Made by a program: the position numbers and the translations under genes
Notes under the pieces: generated by a model
Database searches by the model: none
Told to the model about the DNA's origin: nothing
The model's input: the letters and a program-made list of their open reading frames with translations, nothing else
Shown: in pieces, positions 1 through 11,757 of the stretch
How the letters are laid out: the number at the start of each line of letters is the position of its first letter
How positions within the stretch are numbered: the stretch's first letter is position 1
Origin: Agromyces aureus
Lineage (GTDB): Bacteria; Actinomycetota; Actinomycetes; Actinomycetales; Microbacteriaceae
Reading direction: 5' to 3'
NCBI RefSeq assembly: GCF_001660485.1
Contig: NZ_CP013979.1
Location: forward strand, 496,001 to 560,000
Length of the DNA stretch: 64,000 nucleotides

Positions 1-526
1 GGACAAGCAGAGTCGCGGCAAGGATGAGGAACGTCGCCCGCCAGTCCACGATCGTCAGCAGGCCGGCGACGACCGGGGCGAACACGGTGGAGGCGAGCCC
101 GCCGGCGAGGGTCAGGATCGTCATCGCACCCCTCCGGGCATCGCCGTGGCGGCGGGCGATGATGGTGAACGCGGCTTGGTAGAGCACCGCCGATTGGGCG
201 AGCCCGCAGACGATCCAGCCGAGCGTGAAGATCACGAGATTTGGTGCGGCGCTCACGATGACCAGGCCGAGCGTGCCGATCATGGCGCCGAGGGTCATGA
301 TCAGTCGAGGCCCGCGGTCGTCGAGCCACCGGCCGACGATGATGCCGGCGGCAGCGGAGACGATGAGCCCGCCCGAGAAGCAGAGCGTGATGGTCGCGAC
401 GCTCCAGCCGGTCTCATCCGCGATCGCGGGCGCGGCGATGATCAGCGCGTAATAGAGGATGCCCCAGCTGATGACCTGCCCGACCGAAAGCGCGGCAAGG
501 CGCACCCCGAGCGGATACTTCGACAC
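1..526 (-). CDS. MFS transporter, partial (C-terminus beyond window)
   Basis: About 175 N-terminal residues are visible, reading right to left off the left edge. They contain alternating hydrophobic helices and the classical MFS loop signature GRWLDDRGPR between helices 2 and 3, so this is a major facilitator superfamily permease. The likely start is GTG (protein VSKYPLGVRLA), 20 bp after the stop of the ArsR repressor on the same strand, which makes an arsR-MFS operon likely. The position beside an arsenic cluster suggests export of an arsenical or another toxic compound, but nothing in the visible part defines the substrate. The family call is firm; the role is inference. Confidence 0.85.
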   Translation of the reverse strand, partial: MSKYPLGVRLAALSVGQVISWGILYYALIIAAPAIADETGWSVATITLCFSGGLIVSAAAGIIVGRWLDDRGPRLIMTLGAMIGTLGLVIVSAAPNLVIFTLGWIVCGLAQSAVLYQAAFTIIARRHGDARRGAMTILTLAGGLASTVFAPVVAGLLTIVDWRATFLILAATLLV

Positions 527-545: not shown

Positions 546-917
546 TCAGCGGGATGCGGTGACGTCGAGCAGCTGGGACAGCTCGCCGAGCGCTCCCGGG
601 ACGAGCTTGTAGTACGCCCAGGTGCCGCGCTTGCTGCGGCTCAGGAAGCCGGCCTCCATGAGGATCTTCAGGTGGTGCGAGACGGTCGGTTGGCTGAGGC
701 CGACGGGTTCAATGAGGTCGCAGACGCACGCCTCCGTGCCCTCGGACGCTGCGACGATCGACACCAGCCGGAGCCGGGTCGGGTCGGCCAGGGCCTTCAG
801 CTTCTTCGCGAGGGTGTCAGCGCGCTCCGCGTCCATGGCCTCGCTGGTCAGCGGCGTGCAGCACACGGCAGCGTCGGGCTGGATCACAGGCAGCAGCGTG
901 GTGGACATGTCGACCAT
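546..917 (-). CDS. arsR: ArsR-family metalloid-responsive repressor
   Basis: A 123-residue winged-helix protein. The recognition helix region reads LSQPTVSHHLKIL, followed by the wing SKRGTWAYYKLV, both typical of ArsR/SmtB. Candidate arsenite thiol ligands are a CC pair near the N-terminus and the pair in ACVCDL just before the recognition helix, resembling corynebacterial ArsR. I chose the ATG at 917 because GGAG lies 5 bases upstream; an ATG at 908 is possible, and a longer in-frame ATG at 974 would run through the repeats 925-979. It is divergent from the monooxygenase and precedes the MFS gene, so it probably controls both directions from the shared 80-bp gap. Confidence 0.9.
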   Translation of the reverse strand: MVDMSTTLLPVIQPDAAVCCTPLTSEAMDAERADTLAKKLKALADPTRLRLVSIVAASEGTEACVCDLIEPVGLSQPTVSHHLKILMEAGFLSRSKRGTWAYYKLVPGALGELSQLLDVTASR

Positions 918-924
918 TGTACTC

Positions 925-979
925 CAATATTGACAAACATCGATGGAGTGGGCACACTCAATATCGAAGTTCATCGATG
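925..979. promoter_or_regulatory. Pair of 21-bp direct repeats, candidate ArsR operator
   Basis: Two near-identical 21-bp units start at 925 and 959. Each begins CAATAT(T/C)GA and ends CATCGATG, with only the four or five central bases differing. They sit in the divergent gap between arsR and the monooxygenase, start-to-start 34 bp apart. Their placement over both promoters fits an autoregulatory ArsR site; binding is inferred. Confidence 0.6.
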
Positions 980-997
980 CCTTAGGAGGCGCCCATC

Positions 998-2359
998 ATG
1001 ACGTTGATCGATCTCACCGTCCCGAGTCTGCAGCAGCGCAGCCTCGACACCCTGCCGGTCGCGATCATCGGCGCCGGGCCGGTCGGCCTCGCGGCCGCGG
1101 CGAACCTCGTCGAGCGCGGCATCGACTTCGTCATCTACGAGTCCGGTGACCAGATCGGTTCCAGCATCCGGCAGTGGGGCCACACGCGCCTGTTCTCGCC
1201 GTGGAAGCACGTCGTCGACCCGGCCTCGCGTCGCCTGCTCGAAGCGACCGGATGGCAGCTCCCGGCTCCCGAGAGCCTCCCCACGGGCACCGAGCTCGTT
1301 GAGCAGTACCTCGAGCCGCTCGCGGCGCTCGACGAGATCGCCGGCCGCATTCGCACCGATGTCCGCGTGGAGGCCGTGACCCGTCAGGGCATGGACCGTA
1401 CTCGGACCGCGCGCCGCGCGGCGACGCCGTTCCTGCTCCGCGCACACACCGTCGACGGCATCGAGGAGTTCACCGCGCGCGCCGTGATCGACACCTCCGG
1501 AACCTACTCGCACCCCAACAGCCTCGCCTCATCCGGTCTGGACCCGCTCGGCCTGGCCGACGTGGCGGACCGGGTCAGCCATGCCCTCCCCGATGTCCTC
1601 GGCCGCGAACGAGGACGCTTCGCCGGCCGGCACGTAACCGTTGTCGGCGCCGGACACTCCGCCGCGAACACGCTCCTGGCCCTGGCAGAGCTCGCCGAAC
1701 AGGAGTCCGACACCCGTATCACCTGGCTGATCCGCAACGCGAGTGCCGTCCGTGTCACGACGTCGGATGATGACGGGCTCGCGGCGCGCGCGTCGATCGG
1801 GCGCCGTGTCGACGCGCTCGTCGCCGCCGGCCGCATCACGGTGCTTGACCGCTTCGAAATCGTGCGGCTCGGCCGTACCGACGACGGCGTTCGCCTGATC
1901 GGCGCGCGGGCCGGCGAGCTCGTCGAGCACGACACTGACCTCGTCGTCAGCGCCACGGGCTTCCGCCCCGACCTCGACATGCTCCGCGAGATCCGCCTCG
2001 AGCTCGACGAGATTGTCGAGGCCCCGAAGCGCCTCGCGCCGCTGATCGATCCGAACGTGCACACCTGCGGCACGGTCGAGCCGCACGGGTTCGCCGAGCT
2101 CACGCACCCCGAGCCTGGGTTCTTCCTCGCCGGGATGAAGAGCTACGGTCGCGCGCCGACCTTCCTCCTCGCGACCGGGTACGAGCAGGTCCGCTCGATC
2201 ACGGCATGGCTCGCGGGCGACCTCGCCGCGGCCAGCAACGTCGAGCTCGTGCTGCCCGAGACCGGTGTCTGCTCGACGAGCCTCGCTCCCGACGGATCTT
2301 CCTGCGGCACGAGCGACGCAGCGAGTGGCGCCTCGAGCGCTTCGAGCTGCTGCTCGTGA
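998..2359 (+). CDS. ArsO-like flavin-dependent monooxygenase
   Basis: A 453-residue flavoprotein with an N-terminal FAD-binding GAGPVG at residues 25-30 and a second dinucleotide-binding motif, GAGHSAAN, near residue 218, the layout of single-component NAD(P)H/FAD monooxygenases. An ATGFRPD motif follows near residue 320. The C-terminal 30 residues are rich in Ser, Gly and Cys and end CCS, which could bind metalloid or redox partners. The start has AGGAGG at 984-989. It lies in an arsenic cluster next to arsR and arsN, as ArsO-type proteins do; such enzymes are associated with organoarsenical handling, but the reaction is not established from sequence. It ends overlapping the next gene (GTGA). 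Confidence 0.8.
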   Translation: MTLIDLTVPSLQQRSLDTLPVAIIGAGPVGLAAAANLVERGIDFVIYESGDQIGSSIRQWGHTRLFSPWKHVVDPASRRLLEATGWQLPAPESLPTGTELVEQYLEPLAALDEIAGRIRTDVRVEAVTRQGMDRTRTARRAATPFLLRAHTVDGIEEFTARAVIDTSGTYSHPNSLASSGLDPLGLADVADRVSHALPDVLGRERGRFAGRHVTVVGAGHSAANTLLALAELAEQESDTRITWLIRNASAVRVTTSDDDGLAARASIGRRVDALVAAGRITVLDRFEIVRLGRTDDGVRLIGARAGELVEHDTDLVVSATGFRPDLDMLREIRLELDEIVEAPKRLAPLIDPNVHTCGTVEPHGFAELTHPEPGFFLAGMKSYGRAPTFLLATGYEQVRSITAWLAGDLAAASNVELVLPETGVCSTSLAPDGSSCGTSDAASGASSASSCCS

Positions 2360-2886
2360 CCACCGTCCGGCCGATGGAGGCATCGGACTGGCCGGCCGTG
2401 CAGGCGATCTACGCCGCGGGCATCGCGACCGGCAACGCCACATTCGAGGCAGAACCCCCGAGCTGGCACGCCTTCGACCAATCCCGAGTGCCCGATGCCC
2501 GGCTCGTCGCGTGCGACGCGGACGGCAACGTGATCGGGTGGGCAGCGGCATCCAAAGTCTCCGCGCGCGAGGTGTACCGCGGCGTGCTCGAGCACTCAAT
2601 CTACGTCGACCCCGCCGCGCAAGGAACCGGTGCCGGACGGCAGTTGCTCACCGCATTCATCGACACGACGAACACGGCCGGCTACTGGATGATCCAGTCC
2701 TCGATCTTCCCCGAGAACGTCGCAAGCCTCACCCTCCACGAACGCGCCGGCTTCCGCACCGTCGGCCGACGCGAACGCATCGCACGCATGGGCTACGGCC
2801 CCCACGCCGGCAAATGGCGGGACACGATCCTGATCGAACTCCGCCGCGCTGACCACACTGAGACCAGTGAGGCGCCGCTGAGCTGA
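2356..2886 (+). CDS. ArsN-like GNAT N-acetyltransferase
   Basis: A 176-residue GNAT protein. The acetyl-CoA loop is in AQGTGAGRQLL, and the LHERAGFRTVGRRERIAR segment is typical of phosphinothricin acetyltransferases. ArsN enzymes of this group N-acetylate arsinothricin or phosphinothricin; position after an ArsO-like monooxygenase in an ars cluster supports that role. The GTG start overlaps the monooxygenase stop (GTGA), so translation is probably coupled. An upstream in-frame extension exists but lies within the preceding gene and has no homology-like character. Confidence 0.8.
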   Translation: MTTVRPMEASDWPAVQAIYAAGIATGNATFEAEPPSWHAFDQSRVPDARLVACDADGNVIGWAAASKVSAREVYRGVLEHSIYVDPAAQGTGAGRQLLTAFIDTTNTAGYWMIQSSIFPENVASLTLHERAGFRTVGRRERIARMGYGPHAGKWRDTILIELRRADHTETSEAPLS

Positions 2887-2912: not shown

Positions 2913-2931
2913 TAGATAGACTTTGGTCTAT
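2913..2931 (+). promoter_or_regulatory. Palindromic operator overlapping arsR-arsC start
   Basis: ATAGAC-TTTG-GTCTAT (2916-2931) is a perfect 6-bp inverted repeat. The start codon ATG begins at 2930, inside the right arm, and a -10-like TAGATA lies at 2913-2918; no Shine-Dalgarno is seen. A near-identical site lies at 4586-4601. This suggests autoregulation of a leaderless or nearly leaderless transcript. Confidence 0.65.
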
Positions 2932-3814
2932 GGATGCTTCGGTGGACTCTGCTCGCGAGTTGCGTCTCGTCGCCGACCCGACGCGGGCCCACATCCTGCG
3001 CAGCATCCTCGAAGCCCCCGACGGCCGGGTGCTCGTGGGGCGCCTCGCCGAGGAACTCGGGTTGCGCCAACCCACGGTGAGCCACCATATGAAGGCCCTG
3101 CTTGACGAGGGTCTGGTGCAGCGGCAGCCCGACGGACGACGCACCTGGTACTCGCTGGCCGACGAGCACGCGGACCGGTTGGCTGAGATCCTTCGCGCCC
3201 AAGAACCGTCAGTGCCGGTTGATCCGGTACTGGAGCGGGTGATGCGCGATCTCAGCGACCGGTACCGCGGGACCTTCAGCCCGGAGACGGTCGAGCGGTA
3301 CGTGCGCGAGAGCTACGACCTCCTCGCCGAACGCCCCGCGCCAGGCCGGCGCCTCCCGTCGCTCGCTGCGCAATTCGCGGCCGACCGGCTCGATGCCCTC
3401 GCCCGGGTGGCGCCGGCATCGAGCCCAGTCCCTGAGGTGCTGTTCGTGTGCGTCCAGAACGCGGGAAGGTCGCAGATGGCCTCCGCGATCCTCCGCCACC
3501 TCGCCGGCGACCGGGTACACGTGCGAACGGCCGGCTCGGACCCGGCCGGTGAGGTGCGCAGCTCCGTCCTGACCGCGCTGGACGAGATCGGCGTCCCGCT
3601 GGCCGGCGAATACCCCAAGCCCCTGACGGATGAGGTCGTTCGGGCTGCGGATGTCGTGATCACGATGGGCTGCGGTGACGCATGCCCGATCTACCCCGGC
3701 CGCCGCTACCTCGACTGGGACCTCCCCGACCCGGTGGGTAAGCCCATCACCGAGGTGCGGGAGATCCGCGACGACATCGAGCGCCGCATCCGCGAACTGC
3801 TCGCCACCCTCTAA
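2930..3814 (+). CDS. ArsR-ArsC fusion: winged-helix domain + arsenate reductase
   Basis: A 294-residue three-part protein. Residues 1-90 are an ArsR winged helix (GLRQPTVSHHMKALL, then QPDGRRTWYSL). Residues about 98-165 are the helical extension also found at the N-terminus of the 5,058-5,708 reductase (shared [20 protein letters not shown] and LPSLA..FA.DRL). Residues 168-294 are a low-molecular-weight phosphatase-fold ArsC with the P-loop CVQNAGRS (nucleophile Cys174, Arg180), MGCGDACP near 245-252 and the general-acid loop DLPDP. There is no cysteine before residue 174, so the DNA-binding part lacks the thiols by which ArsR normally senses As(III). Catalytic residues look intact. It is the first gene of the second arsenic transcript. 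Confidence 0.9.
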   Translation: MDASVDSARELRLVADPTRAHILRSILEAPDGRVLVGRLAEELGLRQPTVSHHMKALLDEGLVQRQPDGRRTWYSLADEHADRLAEILRAQEPSVPVDPVLERVMRDLSDRYRGTFSPETVERYVRESYDLLAERPAPGRRLPSLAAQFAADRLDALARVAPASSPVPEVLFVCVQNAGRSQMASAILRHLAGDRVHVRTAGSDPAGEVRSSVLTALDEIGVPLAGEYPKPLTDEVVRAADVVITMGCGDACPIYPGRRYLDWDLPDPVGKPITEVREIRDDIERRIRELLATL

Positions 3815-3830
3815 TCGATCGACAGGACCG

Positions 3831-4586
3831 ATGACCGACGAGTCACCCCAGCCCAGCCCTGCCCCGCTCGCCCGCCGCCTCGTCGCCGAATTCCTCGGAA
3901 CCGGGCTGCTCGTCGCGATCGTCGTCGGATCCGGGATCGCCGCATCCCAGCTTTCCCCGGAGGACGTCGGCCTGCAGTTGCTGGAGAACAGCCTCGCCAC
4001 CACACTCGGCCTGGCCGTCCTGATCGCGGTCTTCGCGCCGCTCTCGGGTGCGCACTTCAACCCCGTCGTCTCGCTCGCCGACTGGTGGCTCTCCCGCAGG
4101 AGTGGCGATCCCGGCTTCGCCGTCCGCGACGTCGCACCCTACGCCGCCGCGCAGGTGCTCGGCGCGATCGCGGGCGCAGTGCTCGCGAACGCGATGTTCG
4201 ACGTGCCCGCCGCGATCGCCACCACGATGCGTGCGACACCGTCGACACTGCTCGCCGAGGTCGTCGCGACCGCCGGACTCGTGCTTGTGATCTTCGCCCT
4301 CGTGCGCAGCGGAAACGCCCGGATCATCCCTGCCGCGGTCGGCGCGTACATCGGAGCGGCGTACTGGTTCACCAGCTCCACCTCGTTCGCCAACCCTGCC
4401 GTGACGATCGGGCGCATCTTCTCCGACACGTTCGCCGGCATCGCCCCGGCCTCAGTCCTCCCATTCCTTGTCGCACAGCTCGTCGGCGCAGTCATCGGCG
4501 TCGTGCTGGTCAGCTTCCTCTTCCCGGTCCACGCCGCAGCGACGGAGCGAGACTGGAGCAAGGTTCCCGCCGAAGTAGCCAAATGA
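3831..4586 (+). CDS. MIP-family aquaporin/aquaglyceroporin in ars operon
   Basis: A 251-residue membrane channel with six hydrophobic segments and the two half-helix signatures HFNPVVS (first NPV instead of NPA) and FANPAVTIGR (second NPA, with the filter Arg). The start is ATG at 3831, 16 bp after the fusion stop, with GGACC just upstream. Located between arsenate reductase genes it most resembles the AqpS arrangement of Sinorhizobium, where arsenite made by ArsC leaves through an aquaglyceroporin; that role is inferred. No Acr3 or ArsB gene is present in the window. The last codons contain the operator for the next arsC. Confidence 0.88.
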   Translation: MTDESPQPSPAPLARRLVAEFLGTGLLVAIVVGSGIAASQLSPEDVGLQLLENSLATTLGLAVLIAVFAPLSGAHFNPVVSLADWWLSRRSGDPGFAVRDVAPYAAAQVLGAIAGAVLANAMFDVPAAIATTMRATPSTLLAEVVATAGLVLVIFALVRSGNARIIPAAVGAYIGAAYWFTSSTSFANPAVTIGRIFSDTFAGIAPASVLPFLVAQLVGAVIGVVLVSFLFPVHAAATERDWSKVPAEVAK

Positions 4587-4604
4587 TAGATGACGGTCTA
4601 TCAT
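4583..4604 (+). promoter_or_regulatory. Palindromic operator and -10 element before arsC
   Basis: ATGATAGA-TGACGG-TCTATCAT is an 8-bp perfect inverted repeat spanning the aquaporin stop codon. Its core ATAGATGACGGTCTAT (4586-4601) matches the site at 2916-2931 in 12 of 16 positions. TATCAT (4599-4604) is a good -10 element exactly six bases before the ATG at 4611, so repressor and RNA polymerase would compete and the mRNA would be leaderless. Confidence 0.65.
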
Positions 4605-4610
4605 TCAAGT

Positions 4611-5030
4611 ATGAGCACTGAGAAGCCTTCCGTCCTGTTCGTCTGCGTCCACAATGCCGGCCGCTCCCAGATGGCCGCCGGGTACCTTCGCGAGCTCGGC
4701 GGGGACCGCGTCGAGGTCCGCTCGGCCGGGTCCGAGCCGAAGGACCAAATCAACCCGATCGCCGTCGAAGCGATGTCCGAAGAGGGCATCGACATCACCG
4801 GCAACACCCCGAAGATCCTCACCGTCGACGCGGTGAAAGAATCCGACGTCGTCATCACCATGGGCTGCGGCGACGCCTGCCCAATCTTCCCCGGCAAGCG
4901 CTACGAGGACTGGGAACTCGAAGACCCGGCCGGCCAGGGCATCGAGGCCGTCCGCCCCATCCGCGACGAGATCCGCCGCCGCGTCGAAGAGCTCATCAGC
5001 GAACTCCTTCCCGCGCCCGCCACCGCCTGA
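4611..5030 (+). CDS. arsC: Arsenate reductase ArsC (LMW phosphatase fold)
   Basis: A 139-residue stand-alone ArsC with the catalytic P-loop CVHNAGRSQM near residues 13-22, MGCGDACP near residues 83-90 and the acid loop ELEDPAG. It reduces arsenate to arsenite using a low-molecular-weight thiol or thioredoxin; the sequence does not decide between mycothiol and thioredoxin. I prefer the ATG at 4611 (MSTEKPSV) to the in-frame ATG at 4590, because the latter lies inside the operator and a -10 element precedes 4611 at leaderless distance. Second of three ArsC domains in 3 kb. Confidence 0.9.
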   Translation: MSTEKPSVLFVCVHNAGRSQMAAGYLRELGGDRVEVRSAGSEPKDQINPIAVEAMSEEGIDITGNTPKILTVDAVKESDVVITMGCGDACPIFPGKRYEDWELEDPAGQGIEAVRPIRDEIRRRVEELISELLPAPATA

Positions 5031-5057: not shown

Positions 5058-5708
5058 ATGAACCGCACCGAGCAGCCACCGCTCCTCACGCCCGACTCCG
5101 TGCTGCACCGGGCCAGCGAACGCCTCGCCGCCCGCTTCGACGGGATCTTCAGCGAAGAGACCGTTGAACGGGTGGTCTTCGAGTCGTACACCGCGCTCGC
5201 ACGCACGGCGAAGGTCAATACCCATCTGCCCAGCCTTGCCACGCGATTCGCGCAGGACCGGCTGACCGCGCTCGCGCAGTCGAAGGGCGCGATCGCGAAG
5301 CCGGTGCCCGAGGTGCTGTTCGTGTGCGTGCAGAACGCCGGCCGATCGCAGATGGCTGCCGCGTACCTCCGGGAACTCGGCGGCGACCGCATCCACGTCC
5401 GGTCGGCAGGATCCCAGCCCGCCTCCGACCTGGGAACGTCCGTCGTCCAGGTCATGACCGAGGCCGGCATCGACCTCGCCCAGGAGTTCCCGAAGCCGCT
5501 CACCGACGACGTCGTCCGCGCCGCGGACGTCGTGATCACGATGGGCTGCGGCGACGCCTGCCCCGTCTACCCCGGCAAGCAATACCTCGACTGGCACCTC
5601 GACGACCCCGACGAGCTCACCCTCGACGAGGTCCGCCGAGTCCGCGACCAGATCCGAACCAACGTCGAACAGCTGCTGCACACCCTGGAGGCCGCACCCC
5701 ATGACTGA
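5058..5708 (+). CDS. arsC: Arsenate reductase ArsC with N-terminal helical domain
   Basis: A 216-residue protein: a helical N-terminal domain (about 10-75) followed by an ArsC domain with [10 protein letters not shown] near residues 93-102 and [12 protein letters not shown] near 162-173. The two-domain form matches the ArsC1'-type enzymes of corynebacteria as I recall them. The N-terminal domain is clearly homologous to the linker of the 2,930-3,814 fusion, so the fusion looks like this protein with an ArsR domain added. The gene overlaps trxB by 8 bp, which supports thioredoxin as the electron donor. Confidence 0.9.
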
Positions 5709-6687
5709 GAACCCCATCGAAAACGTCGTCGTCATCGGCTCGGGCCCCTCCGGCTACACCGCCGCCGTGTACTTGGCCCGCGCCGGCCTGGCACCGGTCG
5801 TGCTCGCAAGCTCAGTCGAAGCGGGCGGCGCCCTGGTCACCACGACCGAGGTCGAGAACTATCCCGGCTTCTCCACGGGCATCATGGGCCCCGAACTCAT
5901 GGACCAGATGCGCGAACAGGCCGAACGCTTCGGCGCCCGCATCGTCTACGACGACGCCACCGAAGTCGAACTCACCAGCGCAGTCAAGACAATCCGCACC
6001 ATCAACGGCGTCGAATACCGCGCCCACACCGTCGTGCTCGCGATGGGCTCGGCCTACCGCAAGCTCGGCATCGAGGGCGAGGAACGACTGACCGGCCGAG
6101 GCGTGTCCTGGTGCGCGACCTGCGACGGGTTCTTCTTCAAAGGCAAAGACATCGCCGTCGTCGGCGGCGGCGACTCCGCACTCGAGGAAGCCATGTTCCT
6201 CACCCGCTTCGCCGACTCGGTCACCCTCGTGCACCGCCGCGACTCACTCCGCGGCTCCCGCATCATGCAAGAACGAGCATTCGCCAACCCGAAGATCCGC
6301 CCCTACTGGAACGCCGAAGTCATCGCCGTCGAAGGCAACGACGGACTCGAGCGACTCCGACTCCGCGACACCACGACCGGAGCAGGCGCCGCACTCGACG
6401 CGACCGGACTCTTCATCGCGATCGGCCACGACCCACGCAGTGACCTCGTTGCCGGCCAGATCGACCTAGACGACGACGGCTACGTCAAGGTCGCGCACCC
6501 CTCGACGCGGACCAACCTCGACGGGGTCTTCGCCTGCGGCGACCTCGTCGACAAGCGCTACCGCCAAGCCATCACCGCCGCGGGGACAGGATGCGCGGCC
6601 GCGCTCGACGCCGAGCACTACCTCGCAGCCCACGGCCTCGCCGATCCAGTGGAGGAACAGCCCGCGGTCATTCTCGAAACGACCTGA
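5701..6687 (+). CDS. trxB: Thioredoxin-disulfide reductase
   Basis: A 328-residue flavoenzyme with FAD motif [10 protein letters not shown] near residue 13, redox-active CATC at residues 138-141, NADPH motif [10 protein letters not shown] and the C-terminal FAD motif GVFACGDL. Length and motif order are those of bacterial TrxB. It transfers electrons from NADPH to thioredoxin and so could recycle the two thioredoxin-type arsenate reductases upstream. The start overlaps the arsC stop (ATGACTGA). No thioredoxin gene is visible nearby, so a chromosomal thioredoxin would be used. Last gene before a convergent hairpin. Confidence 0.95.
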
Positions 6688-6885: not shown

Positions 6886-7494
6886 TCAGCTGGACGCGAG
6901 CAGGTCGCGCATTTGCTGGATCTCGGCAGATTGATCGTCGATGATCTTCTCAGCGAGCGCGATCGCGTCCGGGTTCTGCCCTTCTGCGACCTGTGTTTCG
7001 GCCATGTCGATGGCTCCCTCGTGATGGATGATCATCTGTTCGAGGAACAGCGCTGATGCTTCTGCGCCCGTCGCGGATTCAAGTGCCGCCATGTCGTCCT
7101 CGGACATCATCATCCCGTCGTGGTCCATGCCGTCCATTCCAGAGGAGTCCATCGGCTGGCCCCAGTCATCGAGCCATTGCGTCATGGTGTCGATCTCAGG
7201 CTGTTGGGCGTCTTTGATGGTCTCTGCGAGCTCGGCGACGTCGGGATCGACGCCGTCCTTCTCGAGCAGCACATCGGACATCTCGATGGCTTGCTGATGG
7301 TGGACGATCATGCTCATCGCAAACGCGACATCTGCGTCATTGAAATCGGCGGCCGGGTCGCTGTCGGACGTCGCGGATGGCGAGCCATGGTCCATGCCGG
7401 ACATTTCACCTGACGGGCCGGTGCTGGTGCAGCCGGCGAGAAGGATGGTGGCCATGAGCCCAATGGCGGGGAGCGCCGTAGTGCGGAGTTTCAT
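6886..7494 (-). CDS. DUF305 family lipoprotein
   Basis: A 202-residue exported protein. The lipobox LLAGC puts the lipidated Cys at residue 22. The mature part contains the DUF305 signature MIVHHQQAIEMS and its repeat MIIHHEGAIDMAE, plus a Met/His/Asp-rich stretch (SSGMDGMDHDGMMM) that could bind copper. DUF305 proteins are often linked to copper homeostasis; this one is distal in the copper operon. The ATG at 7494 follows a GAGAG-type ribosome site; an upstream in-frame ATG lacks signal-peptide logic. Confidence 0.88.
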   Translation of the reverse strand: MKLRTTALPAIGLMATILLAGCTSTGPSGEMSGMDHGSPSATSDSDPAADFNDADVAFAMSMIVHHQQAIEMSDVLLEKDGVDPDVAELAETIKDAQQPEIDTMTQWLDDWGQPMDSSGMDGMDHDGMMMSEDDMAALESATGAEASALFLEQMIIHHEGAIDMAETQVAEGQNPDAIALAEKIIDDQSAEIQQMRDLLASS

Positions 7495-7591
7495 GAGAAT
7501 TCTCTCTGTTCGAATCGGTCGATGATGAGCCGTTCGAGCGCGGGGGCCGAACGGCAATGCGTGGTGTGGGGCGCCGTGTTGGGCGCACTTC

Positions 7592-8041
7592 TCACGTACG
7601 ACTGATTGAGAGAGCTATTAGCGATGGAGGGCTGGGTTGAGCCGGCGCTGATAGGAAGACCCCGAGGAAGCGGATCGGGCGGAGCGTCCAGGTGCCACGG
7701 TGAACCTGTGCGGCTGCGAGCAGCGTCAGTGCGCCGACCAGCAGGGCAAGCAGGCACGCCATGGTGAGCATTCCATGCTCCTGCTCACATGCGGGGCCGC
7801 AGGCCGCCGACGCAGCCTCCGCCGATGCCGCATGGCTTGCAGCGTTCGTGGGGCCTTCGTGGTGGCTCTCGTCGCTGGCGGCAACGACGGCAATGTTGTG
7901 GTGGGTGGCAGCACTTGGCTGGCTGGCTGTACCCGAGAGGACGTGCATGGCCAGGAGGCCGATCAGGATGCTGGGGACCGCGAGAGCGATCAGGAGCAGT
8001 CGTGCGTCAGTACTGGCCGCGAGGCGCAAGTGCATCAGCAT
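7592..8041 (-). CDS. DUF6153-like membrane protein in copper operon
   Basis: A 149-residue protein with one N-terminal transmembrane helix (about 15-35), an Ala/His/Cys-containing middle (THHNIAVV, ESHHEGP, ACGPACEQEHGM) and a second helix (about 92-112), then a basic tail. The layout resembles DUF6153 proteins that accompany copper genes in actinobacteria; the family name is from memory. AGGAG precedes the ATG at 8041. The His/Cys middle segment suggests metal binding outside the membrane. Confidence 0.65.
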   Translation of the reverse strand: MLMHLRLAASTDARLLLIALAVPSILIGLLAMHVLSGTASQPSAATHHNIAVVAASDESHHEGPTNAASHAASAEAASAACGPACEQEHGMLTMACLLALLVGALTLLAAAQVHRGTWTLRPIRFLGVFLSAPAQPSPPSLIALSISRT

Positions 8042-8104
8042 GGTCGTCTCCTGGGGGTTCCGTTCAGGGTAACTGGGCTCGTCGGCGCACGGTTGGAGCG
8101 GTTC

Positions 8105-8413
8105 TTAGGATCGCACCAGCCGGGCGATCGCTTCGGAGGCTTCCTTGATCTTCTCGTCGGCTTCGGCGCCGCCGCGGACGGCCGCGCCGACGACGCAGTG
8201 CTTGAGGTGGTCGTCCAGGAGTCCGAGTGCGACGGATTCGAGCGCCGAGGTGAGTGCGGAGATCTGGGTCAGGATGTCGATGCAGTACTTCTCCTCATCG
8301 ACCATCCGGTGGATCCCGCGGGTCTGGCCTTCGATGCGGCGGAGCCGGGCCAGGTACTTGTCCTTGTCGGTGATGTACCCGTGCGACTCATGGGTGTGGG
8401 AGGTGTCGGTCAT
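8105..8413 (-). CDS. csoR: CsoR copper-sensing repressor
   Basis: A 102-residue all-helical regulator of the CsoR/RcnR family (YLARLRRIEGQTRGIHRMV). The Cu(I) ligand triad is visible as Cys44 (KYC), His69 and Cys73 (DDHLKHC). A short His-containing N-terminus (SHTHESHG) precedes it. CsoR leaves DNA when it binds Cu(I). It lies inside the copZ-copB operon; its likely operators are the GTATACC-type boxes at 11,243-11,287. Confidence 0.93.
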   Translation of the reverse strand: MTDTSHTHESHGYITDKDKYLARLRRIEGQTRGIHRMVDEEKYCIDILTQISALTSALESVALGLLDDHLKHCVVGAAVRGGAEADEKIKEASEAIARLVRS

Positions 8414-8439
8414 GATGTGCTCATCTCGGTGAGGTGGGG

Positions 8440-10623
8440 TCAGGCCCGCGCGTGGTCCGGTTCCTTCACGGTTGCTTCTCCGAGTGTGCCTGCCCGGTCG
8501 CCGAGGAGGGCCCTGGTGCTGGCCTCGGGACGGAGATCGAGTCGGCGCAGGAGCTGCGCGTTCAGGGCCACGATGATCGTCGAAAGCGACATCAGGATCG
8601 CGCCGACGGACATGGGGAGCACGAATCCGATGGGTGCGAGCACCCCGGCGGCGAGCGGGACCGAGATGAGGTTGTAGCCGGCGGCCCACCAGAGGTTCTG
8701 CTTCATCTTGCGGTAGCTCGCTCGGGACAGCTGGATCACCGAGAGGACCGAGCGGGGGTCATCGCTGGCGAGGATCACCCCGGCCGACGCGATCGCGACG
8801 TCGGTGCCGGCACCGATCGCGAGGCCCACATCGGCCTGAGCGAGTGCCGGGGCGTCGTTGACGCCGTCCCCGACCATGGCGACCTTCCGGCCCTCGCCCT
8901 GCAGCTCCTTGACCTTCGCGGACTTGTCCTCGGGTCGCACTCCGGCGAAGTACCGGTCGATGCCGAGTTCGGTCGCGACCGAGTGCGCGACCGCGTCAGC
9001 ATCGCCGGTGATCATGACCACCTGCACACCGAGCTCGTGAAGCGCCGCGACGGCTTCACGGGACTCGTCACGGATCGCGTCGGCGAGCTTGAGTGCCCCG
9101 ATCACTCGACCGTTCTGGAGGACGTGCAAGATGATCGCGCCGTCCTGTCGCCAATGGTCGGCGATCGGCAGTTCGGTGACGTTCTCCTCGGACAGCAGGT
9201 GCGGGCCGCCGACGCGAATCTGGGCTGATTCGACCGTCGCGGTCACCCCGACGGCGGGTGCGGAATCAAAGTCGGTGGCTCGAGGAACGGTGATTCCTCG
9301 CTCGTTCGCGGTCGCGACGATCGCGCGGGCAAGCGGGTGCTCGGAGTCGGCCTCGGCGGCGGCGGCCAGAGCGAGGACCTGGTCGGCGTCCCACCCCTCC
9401 ACCGTCTCGATGCTGCTGACAGTGGGTTCGCCCTTGGTGAGCGTGCCGGTCTTGTCGAACAGGACGGTGTCCACGGTGCGCATGCTCTCGAGCGCGAGGC
9501 GGTCCTTGATCAGCACGCCACCACGGGCGGCGCGCTCCGTCGCGATTGAGACGACGAGAGGGATTGCAAGTCCCAAGGCGTGGGGGCAGGCGATCACGAG
9601 GACGGTGATGGTGCGGACGACTGCTTCGTCGGGGTTGCCGACGACAAGCGTCCAGACGATGGCGGTGAGAACCGCGGCCCCGAGTGCGAACCAGAACAGC
9701 GCCGCAGCGGCTTTGTCGGCGATCCGCTGGGCACGCGATGAGGAGTTCTGCGCGTCGGTGACGAGTCGTTGGATGCCAGCCAGTGCGGTGTCGTCACCGA
9801 CGGCGGTGACTTCGACGCGAATGCCGGAATCCGTCGCGACGGTCCCGGCGACGACCGGGTCACCTTCGCTGCGGCGAACCGGCTTGGACTCGCCGGTGAT
9901 CATCGACTCATCCACACTCGCCGACCCGCTCACCACCCGCCCATCGGCGGGAACGCGCCCGCCGGGGCGTACGACGACGACGTCGCCCACGCGAAGGTCG
10001 CCGGGTGGCACGGTGACGGTCGTGTCGCCATCGACGCGTTCAGCCTCATCGGGCAGGAGCGCGGCGAGGGAGTCCAGCGCCGAGGTGGTCTGCGCGAGGG
10101 AGCGCATCTCGACCCAGTGGCCGAGGAGCATGATCACGATCAGTAGCGCGAGCTCCCACCAGAAGTCGAGCTCGTGATCCAGCAGTCCAAGGCTCGCACC
10201 CCACGATGCGAGGAACGCGACCGTAATCGCCAGCCCGATCAGGAGCATCATGCCGGGCTTGAGCGCGCGGATCTCTGAGACAGCGCCGGTGAGGAACGGG
10301 CGGCCGCCCCACACATACATGACGGTTCCCAGGACCGGCGAGATCCAGGCGAGCCACGGTTGGTCTGGCAGTTCGTAGCCGATCACCATGGCGAACATCG
10401 GCGAGAACGCGATGACCGGGACCGCGAGGATCAGGTTGATCCAGAACAGCCGGCGGAACTGCCCGACGTGATCGCCGTGTCCGGAGTGCCCGCCATGGTC
10501 GGAGTGTCCGGCGTCGTGGCCGGTGTGCTCGTGCTCCGTGTGCGTGGCGATCGGCTGTGATTCTGTGGTTCGGGCAGCGGCAGCCGAGGCCTGATCACTG
10601 TGGTGCTGGTGCTGGTCGTTCAT
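8440..10623 (-). CDS. copB: CopB-type copper-translocating P1B ATPase (CPH motif)
   Basis: A 727-residue P-type ATPase with a His-rich N-terminus (residues about 2-55) in place of CxxC domains. Motifs in order are actuator TGES, membrane CPH ([10 protein letters not shown]), phosphorylation DKTGTLT, SEHPLA and hinge [12 protein letters not shown] instead of CPC assigns it to the P1B-3/CopB group, reported for Cu(II), Ag(I) or Cu(I) export. The ATG at 10623 gives the His-rich start; a longer in-frame start would be arginine-rich, GC-driven sequence. Lies 47 bp after the YHS gene and 27 bp before csoR. Confidence 0.95.
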
Positions 10624-10669
10624 AGTTCGGCCTTCTCTCAAACGCGAGCGGCGAGGTGGGTGGCGCCGG

Positions 10670-10921
10670 CTATGCGGCGATGTACGCGGCCGGATCCGCG
10701 TCGAACTTCGGTCCGCAGCCAGCGCAGCAGAACCAATAGCGGACGCCGTCGACGTCACGGTACAGACCGGCAGCCTCCGCCTTGGATTTGACCACGGTGC
10801 TGCCCTTCATGACCGGGCACTCGGCGAGGTCTTCCGGGGTGTCCTGGCCGAGCAGATTTGGTGCATGGTCGGGCATGGCGGCAAGAGACGGAGCAGGGAT
10901 ACTGCAGCAGCTGTCGTTCAT
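10670..10921 (-). CDS. YHS-domain metal-binding protein
   Basis: An 83-residue soluble protein. The N-terminus has a CC pair (NDSCCS), and the YHS/TRASH-like domain shows AECPVMKG and [18 protein letters not shown], with cysteines placed for metal binding. Such domains are found fused to or beside heavy-metal ATPases. Located between copZ and the copper ATPase, it is probably a copper donor or buffer for the pump. No membrane segment. Confidence 0.85.
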
Positions 10922-11418: not shown

Positions 11419-11757
11419 ATGTCGACCGCCACCGCGTCCGTGACGCACACCGCAGCGCTCGCCCGACTCGGGTACGCGCTCTCGGACGCGACCCGCACGG
11501 GAGTCCTACTCGCGCTTCGTGAGGCTCCGGCGTATCCGTCCGATCTGGCGGATGCGCTCGGCGTGTCCCGTCAGGTCATGTCAAACCAGCTGGCCTGCCT
11601 GCGCGGGTGCGGACTCGTTGAGGCGGTGCCGGACGGGCGCCGCACTTGGTATCGCCTCGCCGACCCGCACCTCGCACCTGCGCTCAACGAGCTGCTGCAG
11701 GTCGTGCTCTTCGTCGATCCCGGCTGCTGCGCTGGAGATAGCTGCACCTGCGCATGA
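11419..11757 (+). CDS. CmtR-like ArsR-family Cd/Pb-sensing repressor
   Basis: A 112-residue ArsR-family winged helix (VSRQVMSNQLACLRGCGLV). Cys60 and Cys64 lie in the recognition helix and a Cys cluster (CC at 103-104, then CTC) ends the protein. This matches the Cys57/Cys61/Cys102 arrangement by which mycobacterial CmtR binds Cd(II)/Pb(II). The stop overlaps the start of the cation transporter (ATGA), the expected efflux partner. Metal identity is inferred from ligand placement. Confidence 0.85.
   Translation: MSTATASVTHTAALARLGYALSDATRTGVLLALREAPAYPSDLADALGVSRQVMSNQLACLRGCGLVEAVPDGRRTWYRLADPHLAPALNELLQVVLFVDPGCCAGDSCTCA

Follow-up and report, generated by a model that had tools for sequence, protein, structure and literature searches.

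A conserved cysteine-free ArsR–ArsC fusion with paired operators in Agromyces aureus, a candidate arsenate sensor

ArsR regulators are the textbook sensors of arsenite, and arsenate reductase is induced only once some arsenite has formed. In the accessible text on the arsenite-responsive repressors R773, AfArsR, CgArsR and ArArsR, three ArsR cysteines in each bind the arsenite (PMC11868830). The nearest report we found of an ArsR that prefers arsenate is, as far as its available text goes, that of TtSmtB from Thermus thermophilus, an ArsR-family repressor acting on an arsC gene with a better response to arsenate than to arsenite (PMC5658604). ArsR–ArsC fusions have themselves been described: the accessible parts of the reports place them in Actinobacteria as clusters C4 and C7 (PMC6514093), name them in L. 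ferriphilum, Microbacterium and Sinorhizobium (PMC6205960), and describe the arsRC gene of L. ferriphilum (PMC4443643). On the side of the enzyme the closest relative is Cg_ArsC1' of Corynebacterium glutamicum (PDB 3t38), a thioredoxin-dependent arsenate reductase.

The fusion analyzed here is encoded in the soil-type actinobacterium Agromyces aureus, within a stretch of 64,000 nucleotides that was analyzed whole and is called the window. The arsenic-related features of the window are as follows.

1–526, minus strand: MFS transporter gene, running off the window; its best NCBIfam match is ArsK at 132 bits against a cut-off of 400, and it is not certified as ArsK
546–974, minus strand: stand-alone ArsR with EACVCDL cysteines, presumed arsenite sensor; best match the Rv2640c family, below cut-off
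998–2359, plus strand: ArsO-like flavoprotein gene, divergent from the CVC ArsR; NF040505 at 59.8 bits (cut-off 425)
2206–2886, plus strand: GNAT acetyltransferase reading frame, ArsN1-like, with the CVC ArsR divergent from it; NF040503 at 121.6 bits (cut-off 170)
2916–2931: operator 1, ATAGACTTTGGTCTAT, which overlaps both the start codon and a -10-like TAGACT; putative repressor site of the fusion's own promoter
2930–3814, plus strand: arsRC fusion of 294 amino acids, a single reading frame with ArsR and ArsC domains
2960–3199, plus strand: cysteine-free ArsR/SmtB winged-helix domain of the fusion, about residues 11–90
3230–3403, plus strand: PF21234 three-helix domain of the fusion, residues 101–158, as in Cg_ArsC1'
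3437–3802, plus strand: arsenate reductase domain of LMW-phosphatase fold, residues 170–291, with Cys174/Cys248/Cys252, Arg180 and Asp267
3831–4586, plus strand: aquaporin (MIP family), between the two operators
4586–4601: operator 2, ATAGATGACGGTCTAT, preceding arsC; putative repressor site
4611–5030, plus strand: single-domain arsenate reductase arsC, behind operator 2
5058–5708, plus strand: second arsenate reductase, PF21234 plus LMWPc, resembling the fusion minus its HTH
5701–6687, plus strand: thioredoxin reductase, directly after the two arsC genes; TIGR01292 above cut-off

The fused architecture is the same as in the earlier reports (PMC6514093, PMC6205960), whose accessible text does not separate cysteine-free from CVC proteins and does not describe an operator pair. 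The ArsR–ArsC fusion type is already known, and the window protein is a real, conserved cysteine-free variant of it; neither cysteine-free ArsR–ArsC fusions nor their operator pair were reported in the literature searched, most subscription papers lying outside it. The fusion shares the wHTH family of R773, AfArsR, CgArsR and ArArsR but has none of the cysteines given in the accessible account of them. It differs likewise from TtSmtB, which in the available text is a stand-alone protein with Cys10, Cys62 and Cys64 and no fused reductase (PMC5658604), whereas the window fusion has no HTH cysteine at all. With Cg_ArsC1' it is 52% identical over 196 alignment columns, structural and sequence matches both giving the same PF21234 plus ArsC fold; unlike the window fusion, Cg_ArsC1' has no HTH domain.

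The Pfam matches on the fusion are all above cut-off: PF01022/PF12840 at residues 15–64, PF21234 at 101–158 and PF01451 (LMWPc) at 170–291. PF01022 scores 40.6 bits (cut-off 22) and the metalloregulator ArsR/SmtB model NF033788 70.3 bits (cut-off 55), so that the N-terminal part belongs to the ArsR/SmtB winged-helix family. The middle domain is also matched by NF046112, a ‘three-helix bundle dimerization domain’. The only cysteines are 174, 248 and 252, all inside the ArsC domain. The segment GRVLVGRLAEELG of the HTH aligns with EACVCDL of the canonical ArsR at 546–974, and residues 1–173 hold neither the CVC cysteines, nor an N-terminal cysteine, nor any other; when aligned, the window fusion lacks the thiol arsenite site of As(III)-responsive ArsR types. 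An alternative metal site is not apparent either: among His, Asp, Glu and Cys positions kept in ≥85% of 169 sequences of the window protein's clade (clade A below), only D16, H52 and H53 lie in the HTH, and H52 and H53 are the SHH of the recognition helix.

The reductase part contains Cys174, Asn177, Arg180, Ser181, Cys248, Cys252 and Asp267-Pro268. These are the P-loop cysteine and arginine, the two redox cysteines and the Asp-Pro loop that, with PF21234, mark a thioredoxin-type ArsC of the Cg_ArsC1' group; the NCBIfam ArsC models match below their cut-offs only. Among 338 fusions tabulated from an alignment of 340, Cys248 is present in 338, Cys252 in 334 and Asp267 in 337, Cys174, Asn177, Arg180 and Ser181 being conserved by construction since that motif was used to pick the sequences. 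C248, C252 and D267 are retained in the cysteine-free fusions, and the catalytic residues are kept in every class. A structure model of the protein P0001 has a mean pLDDT of 85.8; it is a monomer only with a pTM of 0.61, and its domain arrangement was therefore left out as evidence.

The window divides into two arms. The CVC ArsR and the adjoining ArsK-like MFS gene on the same strand form one, and the cysteine-free fusion with the aquaporin, two arsC genes and trxR forms the other. This neighborhood fits arsenate reduction with arsenite predicted to leave through a channel or an MFS carrier. An ACR3 query found no match in the organism's own genome; three matches to PF01758 that this query missed lie elsewhere in it, as does one weak ArsB-family match. 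Searching the genome with the fusion gave 14 matches at E≤0.001, of which two are full fusions. The second (L089:5385-6293) is 53% identical, has no cysteine before the catalytic one, carries the same operator pair, and is followed by an arsC.

Allowing at most one mismatch, the pattern ATAGAYNNNNRTCTAT occurs in the window at 2916–2931 and 4586–4601 only, where 100 shuffles averaged 0.00 occurrences, and at four places in the 4.37-Mb genome (4,373,124 bases), where a reversed control pattern gave 0. Those four places are the starts of the two cysteine-free fusions and the regions upstream of the arsC neighboring each. Because its start codon, the ATG at 2930, lies partly within the first operator, the fusion gene is possibly leaderless. 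The 43 first operators (42 from clade A loci and one from L117, a locus whose fusion has half of the cysteine motif) give the consensus ATAGACTNNNRTCTATG; for 40 of them the first in-frame start codon begins exactly 14 nt past the operator start, so that it spans the end of the operator. The consensus of 42 second operators runs on into TATGCTT. Both operators overlap -10-like boxes, TAGACT and TATGCT respectively, which by our own reading would fit actinobacterial -10 boxes; a repressor bound at the operator would cover the -10 box and the transcription start point. The initial annotation had proposed a cysteine-free DNA-binding part with Cys174 as the first cysteine, a reductase site that looks intact, and duplicate operators at 2916 and 4586. 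All of this stands: the cysteines and operator positions are exactly as given, and the catalytic residues and the operator pattern are conserved through the clade.

The operator is associated with the fusion across the family. In 199 family genomes counted by eye at a fusion threshold of E≤1e-75, an exact site is found in 26 of the 30 Microbacteriaceae genomes with a full-length fusion versus 21 of 169 others, which include at least one with a more distant fusion (G089); Fisher's test gives p = 8e-16, ignoring relatedness. One fusion-bearing genome (G139) has an extra operator before an arsC elsewhere (L145). In reduced-genome relatives with no fusion at E≤1e-75, ATAGAY-N4-RTCTAT operators stand beside stand-alone CxC ArsRs, between the ArsR and aquaporin-arsC (L126, L127) or acr3 (L140). 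In further Microbacteriaceae with no fusion at that threshold an operator lies right before trxR, at 1501–1516 in L128, L132, L133 and L142. Its presence at the stand-alone ArsRs and trxR of relatives makes it a wider ars site of the family, one that the fusions share.

How widespread is the cysteine-free state? The fusion set was drawn from database proteins and from genomes, and the two protein searches, each returning the best 120 of thousands, were seeded with the cysteine-free window protein and a CVC-less Promicromonospora protein, so the counts that follow are not unbiased. In the first set, among the matches listed, the catalytic cysteine is the earliest in all 121 proteins, one of which (P0072) is without an HTH. 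Near-copies were removed and 10 weak HTH matches (E>1e-8) dropped, and 340 fusion sequences were aligned; among the matches listed, the two CVC cysteines are both present in 87, only one of them in a single sequence, and neither in 252. In the P set, again among the matches listed, a cysteine within 60 residues before the CVC site is found in 33 of 38 CVC proteins vs none of 192 CVC-less ones. This nearly all-or-none pattern matches a three-thiol arsenite site (N-terminal Cys plus CxC) that goes missing as a whole. One or two other cysteines precede the catalytic one in 64 of the 192 CVC-less P-set proteins (among the matches listed), and at least those of the CVC-less Promicromonospora fusions lie in the three-helix domain. 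Of the 28 family-genome fusions L094–L121, 27 are free of cysteine over the 150 residues preceding the catalytic one; L117 has a single one there. As a control, CxC (CVC, CIC or CAC) is kept in 35 of 35 stand-alone ArsRs of the fusion loci that do not precede an ArsC; this was a hand count of 45 rows from a CVC ArsR query, and so leans towards CxC, with six duplicates or instances of the fusion itself and four cysteine-free ArsRs before ArsC dropped.

We built a tree of 118 representatives with the trait columns left out, by a quick method with SH-aLRT support only; it is unrooted, and 20 of its 115 inner branches are starred and 54 open. It separates the clade of the window protein (clade A), with 64 representatives of which 63 lack HTH cysteines and one has half the motif, from a sister clade B, where 41 of 54 have CVC and 13 are without. 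The trait changes six to seven times in total, six of them inside clade B, and the starred branches alone force three to four changes. Loss is favored over gain because stand-alone ArsRs and clade B have the same site. The question had been raised if fusions of this kind invariably lack HTH cysteines, and they do not: the 87 aligned fusions that keep CVC belong mostly to the sister clade. The opposite possibility raised by the initial annotation, that they were lost only here, does not apply, their absence being conserved clade-wide.

A local or chance loss is rejected by the second fusion in the genome and by the 64 clade A representatives; a single protein without an upstream cysteine would be unremarkable, and conservation through a clade is more than chance. 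A rule that fusion always means no HTH cysteine fails on the 41 CVC representatives of clade B, and on the distant L256 and L257, which have one cysteine in the HTH (LCVAHL). These two, from another actinobacterial family, have a further cysteine later on and are perhaps an independent fusion. A short linker cannot serve as the mark of cysteine loss: between HTH and helix its median length is 33 residues in clade A and 47 in clade B, and the CVC-less members of clade B retain a long one (median 46). Full-length fusions were found in six of 396 genomes of the phylum (G000, G142, G106, G164, G512, G526), four of them in the window's family, at E≤1e-80, a threshold that would miss more diverged fusions. 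In three proteobacterial plasmid loci (L152, L249, L250) arsR and arsC are separate genes.

The two clades differ in what surrounds the fusion. Our 110 non-redundant loci comprise 50 of clade A without cysteines, 49 of clade B with CVC and eight of clade B without, together with two ‘third type’ proteins and the clade A half-cysteine fusion of L117, which stand outside these counts. At no more than one mismatch, an operator is present at the fusion start in 42 of the 50 clade A loci; likewise in 42 one lies behind the fusion at a distance of up to 100 nt, and in 48 there is one anywhere near it. None was found nearby in L023 and L029. An ArsC match follows immediately downstream in 43 of the 50. 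Within 3 kb downstream (less where the locus is shorter) there are single-domain arsC in 46, PF21234-type ArsC in 12, an aquaporin in seven and TrxR in five. No acr3 was found anywhere in the 50 fetched loci by one ACR3 query at E≤1e-8, 26 loci reaching at least 3 kb upstream and 48 about 1.4 kb. In three Microbacterium loci a PstS-family gene (L013:6351-7295, L018:6337-7314, L027:6368-7339) overlaps the arsC located after the second operator or follows it at 19 nt.

In the CVC loci of clade B, acr3 lies directly upstream of the fusion in 37 of 49 and arsC immediately downstream in 41; the operator is absent from all 49, both at the start of the fusion and behind it. The eight clade B loci without cysteines have acr3 in two (L226, L231), arsC immediately downstream in five, and an operator near the fusion start in one (L040). 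A related site, e.g. ATAGACACATGTCGAT, is present upstream of the clade B acr3 in 24 of 37 loci at up to two mismatches, a count that carries no chance control, and is exact in L185. DNA recognition thus seems broadly kept, with a different gene regulated. Inside clade B the association of the cysteines with acr3 gives a Fisher p of 0.009, ignoring relatedness, and the independent-pair comparison rests on three pairs on starred branches, so that the link is not proven phylogenetically. Microbacterium sp. A33 is said to carry arsTX, arsRC2, ACR3 and arsC1, and its ArsRC2, a fusion of the same architecture, reportedly represses its own operon. In its gene set A33 would resemble clade B as laid out in L251 (trxB-trxA-acr3-arsRC-arsC), where the fusion carries CVC.

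What would such a protein do? Read from its sequence and setting, the fusion very probably represses its own gene as well as the arsenate reductase gene arsC through ATAGAY-N4-RTCTAT sites, and the leading reading is that arsenate is sensed through its own enzyme. In this scheme, of which DNA binding, repression, dimerization, allosteric coupling and the ligand are all inferred, the fusion would repress the arsenate-reduction arm of arsenic resistance by binding ATAGAY-N4-RTCTAT over its own promoter and that of arsC. A change in its ArsC domain, as the active site is occupied or turned over by arsenate, would release it from the DNA. The state read might be arsenate in the P-loop, a Cys174–arsenic adduct, or disulfide states of Cys174/Cys248/Cys252, and the signal would pass to the HTH via the PF21234 domain. 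Since the middle domain matches the dimerization model NF046112, a dimeric HTH could be linked to a pair of active sites. Arsenate would induce the reductase genes, as would a reductase that runs short of reductant, and arsenite would be sensed by a separate CVC-type ArsR where one is present.

There is no HTH thiol or other conserved metal-type cluster and C248, C252 and D267 are kept, so the ArsC domain is the only visible place where arsenic could act as input. That it is indeed a sensor of arsenate or of turnover we put at even odds. That the enzyme acts as sensor gains likelihood from the operators preceding arsenate reductases (with aquaporin, TrxR or PstS in some loci), and from acr3 in 0/50 clade A loci. 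We assign a probability of about 0.4 to the full reading, in which clade A ArsRC senses arsenate as a single protein: the fused reductase, by its catalytic cycle and not through repressor thiols, would set the DNA-binding state, and the reductase genes (in some loci TrxR, aquaporin or PstS genes too) would be induced apart from the arsenite response. If this is true, arsenate is sensed directly by its own enzyme and the cell measures arsenate by reducing it. Biosensors could then make use of a genetic switch that responds to arsenate as opposed to arsenite, and the CVC and cysteine-free fusions of one family would be a natural pair for studying a shift of sensing from ligand site to active site.

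The fusion might instead sense arsenite, with the As(III) product bound in a relocated arsenite site formed by two or all three of Cys174, Cys248 and Cys252 in the ArsC domain. These are the only thiols of the protein, their +74/+78 spacing from the catalytic cysteine is found in 121 of 121 close relatives (among the matches listed) and in nearly all others, and an ArsC–arsenite complex has been crystallized (1lju, according to the available part of the record). However, clade A loci have no acr3 in 50, and a tight hold on the product would presumably make the reductase self-inhibiting; we regard such a site as unlikely.

A repressor with no arsenic input, constitutive or autoregulatory, would use its HTH to set the dose of reductase by feedback. 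Two operators do make a closed feedback loop and the HTH shows no visible ligand site, but the catalytic residues are kept in every class and the arsenite site is missing repeatedly within fusions, both of which suggest a takeover of sensing and not its abandonment, so that we find this quite unlikely. A constitutive repressor may also be displaced by turnover.

Alternatively, the fusion could be a reductase with a DNA anchor, and sensing at these operators would fall to a CVC-type ArsR of the cell, acting by itself or in a heterodimer. The window has such an ArsR at 546–974, and an identical operator sequence stands beside the stand-alone CxC ArsRs of relatives. Because the operator also occurs at CxC ArsRs and acr3, another ArsR may cross-regulate in those 20 of the 30 fusion-bearing genomes that have an ArsR1-like protein. 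Against this, the operator pair tracks the fusion, and the other ten of these Microbacteriaceae genomes have no ArsR1-like protein besides the fusion at E≤1e-14. A further 19 ArsR-family matches in those ten (E≤1e-6) include none with CxC where CVC would stand; an ArsR-family protein of G082 and one of G197 carry CC closer to the C-terminal end, and a match in G189 (L310) has a single cysteine a few residues past the CVC position. Among the ten, the assemblies of G124, G189 and G147 comprise 290, 140 and 110 contigs and that of G039 reaches 83% completeness, and the absence is firmest in G074, G076, G116 and G139. Within reach of this search a CVC-type ArsR as a hidden sensor in some of these genomes is unlikely, and as a general account we hold the DNA-anchor explanation to be decidedly improbable.

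That the fusion reads the general thiol redox state or phosphate, not arsenic, is the least probable of these alternatives: TrxR and PstS genes occur in some target units and the LMW-phosphatase fold binds oxyanions, but it is an arsenate reductase that forms the core target at the second operator.

Four stand-alone ArsRs directly before a PF21234-type ArsC (L009, L063, L184, L201) have no CxC, and a fifth, on a Cellulosimicrobium plasmid (L251), has no cysteine at all. The pairs lie at L009:8610-10133, L063:4899-6192 and L251:4604-5891, and in L184 and L201. The N-terminal HTH of those ArsCs is weak in L009 and has no Pfam match in L063 and L251. They are possibly a split or parallel form of the cysteine-free fusion. 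The plasmid pair adjoins pst genes.

Two further observations concern the window itself. An ArsR-type HTH at 11476–11700 on the plus strand is 43% identical to that of the fusion. On the minus strand, 6886–10758 may be a metal cluster, with DUF305-like, small CsoR-like and P-type ATPase reading frames named by eye from the list of open reading frames.
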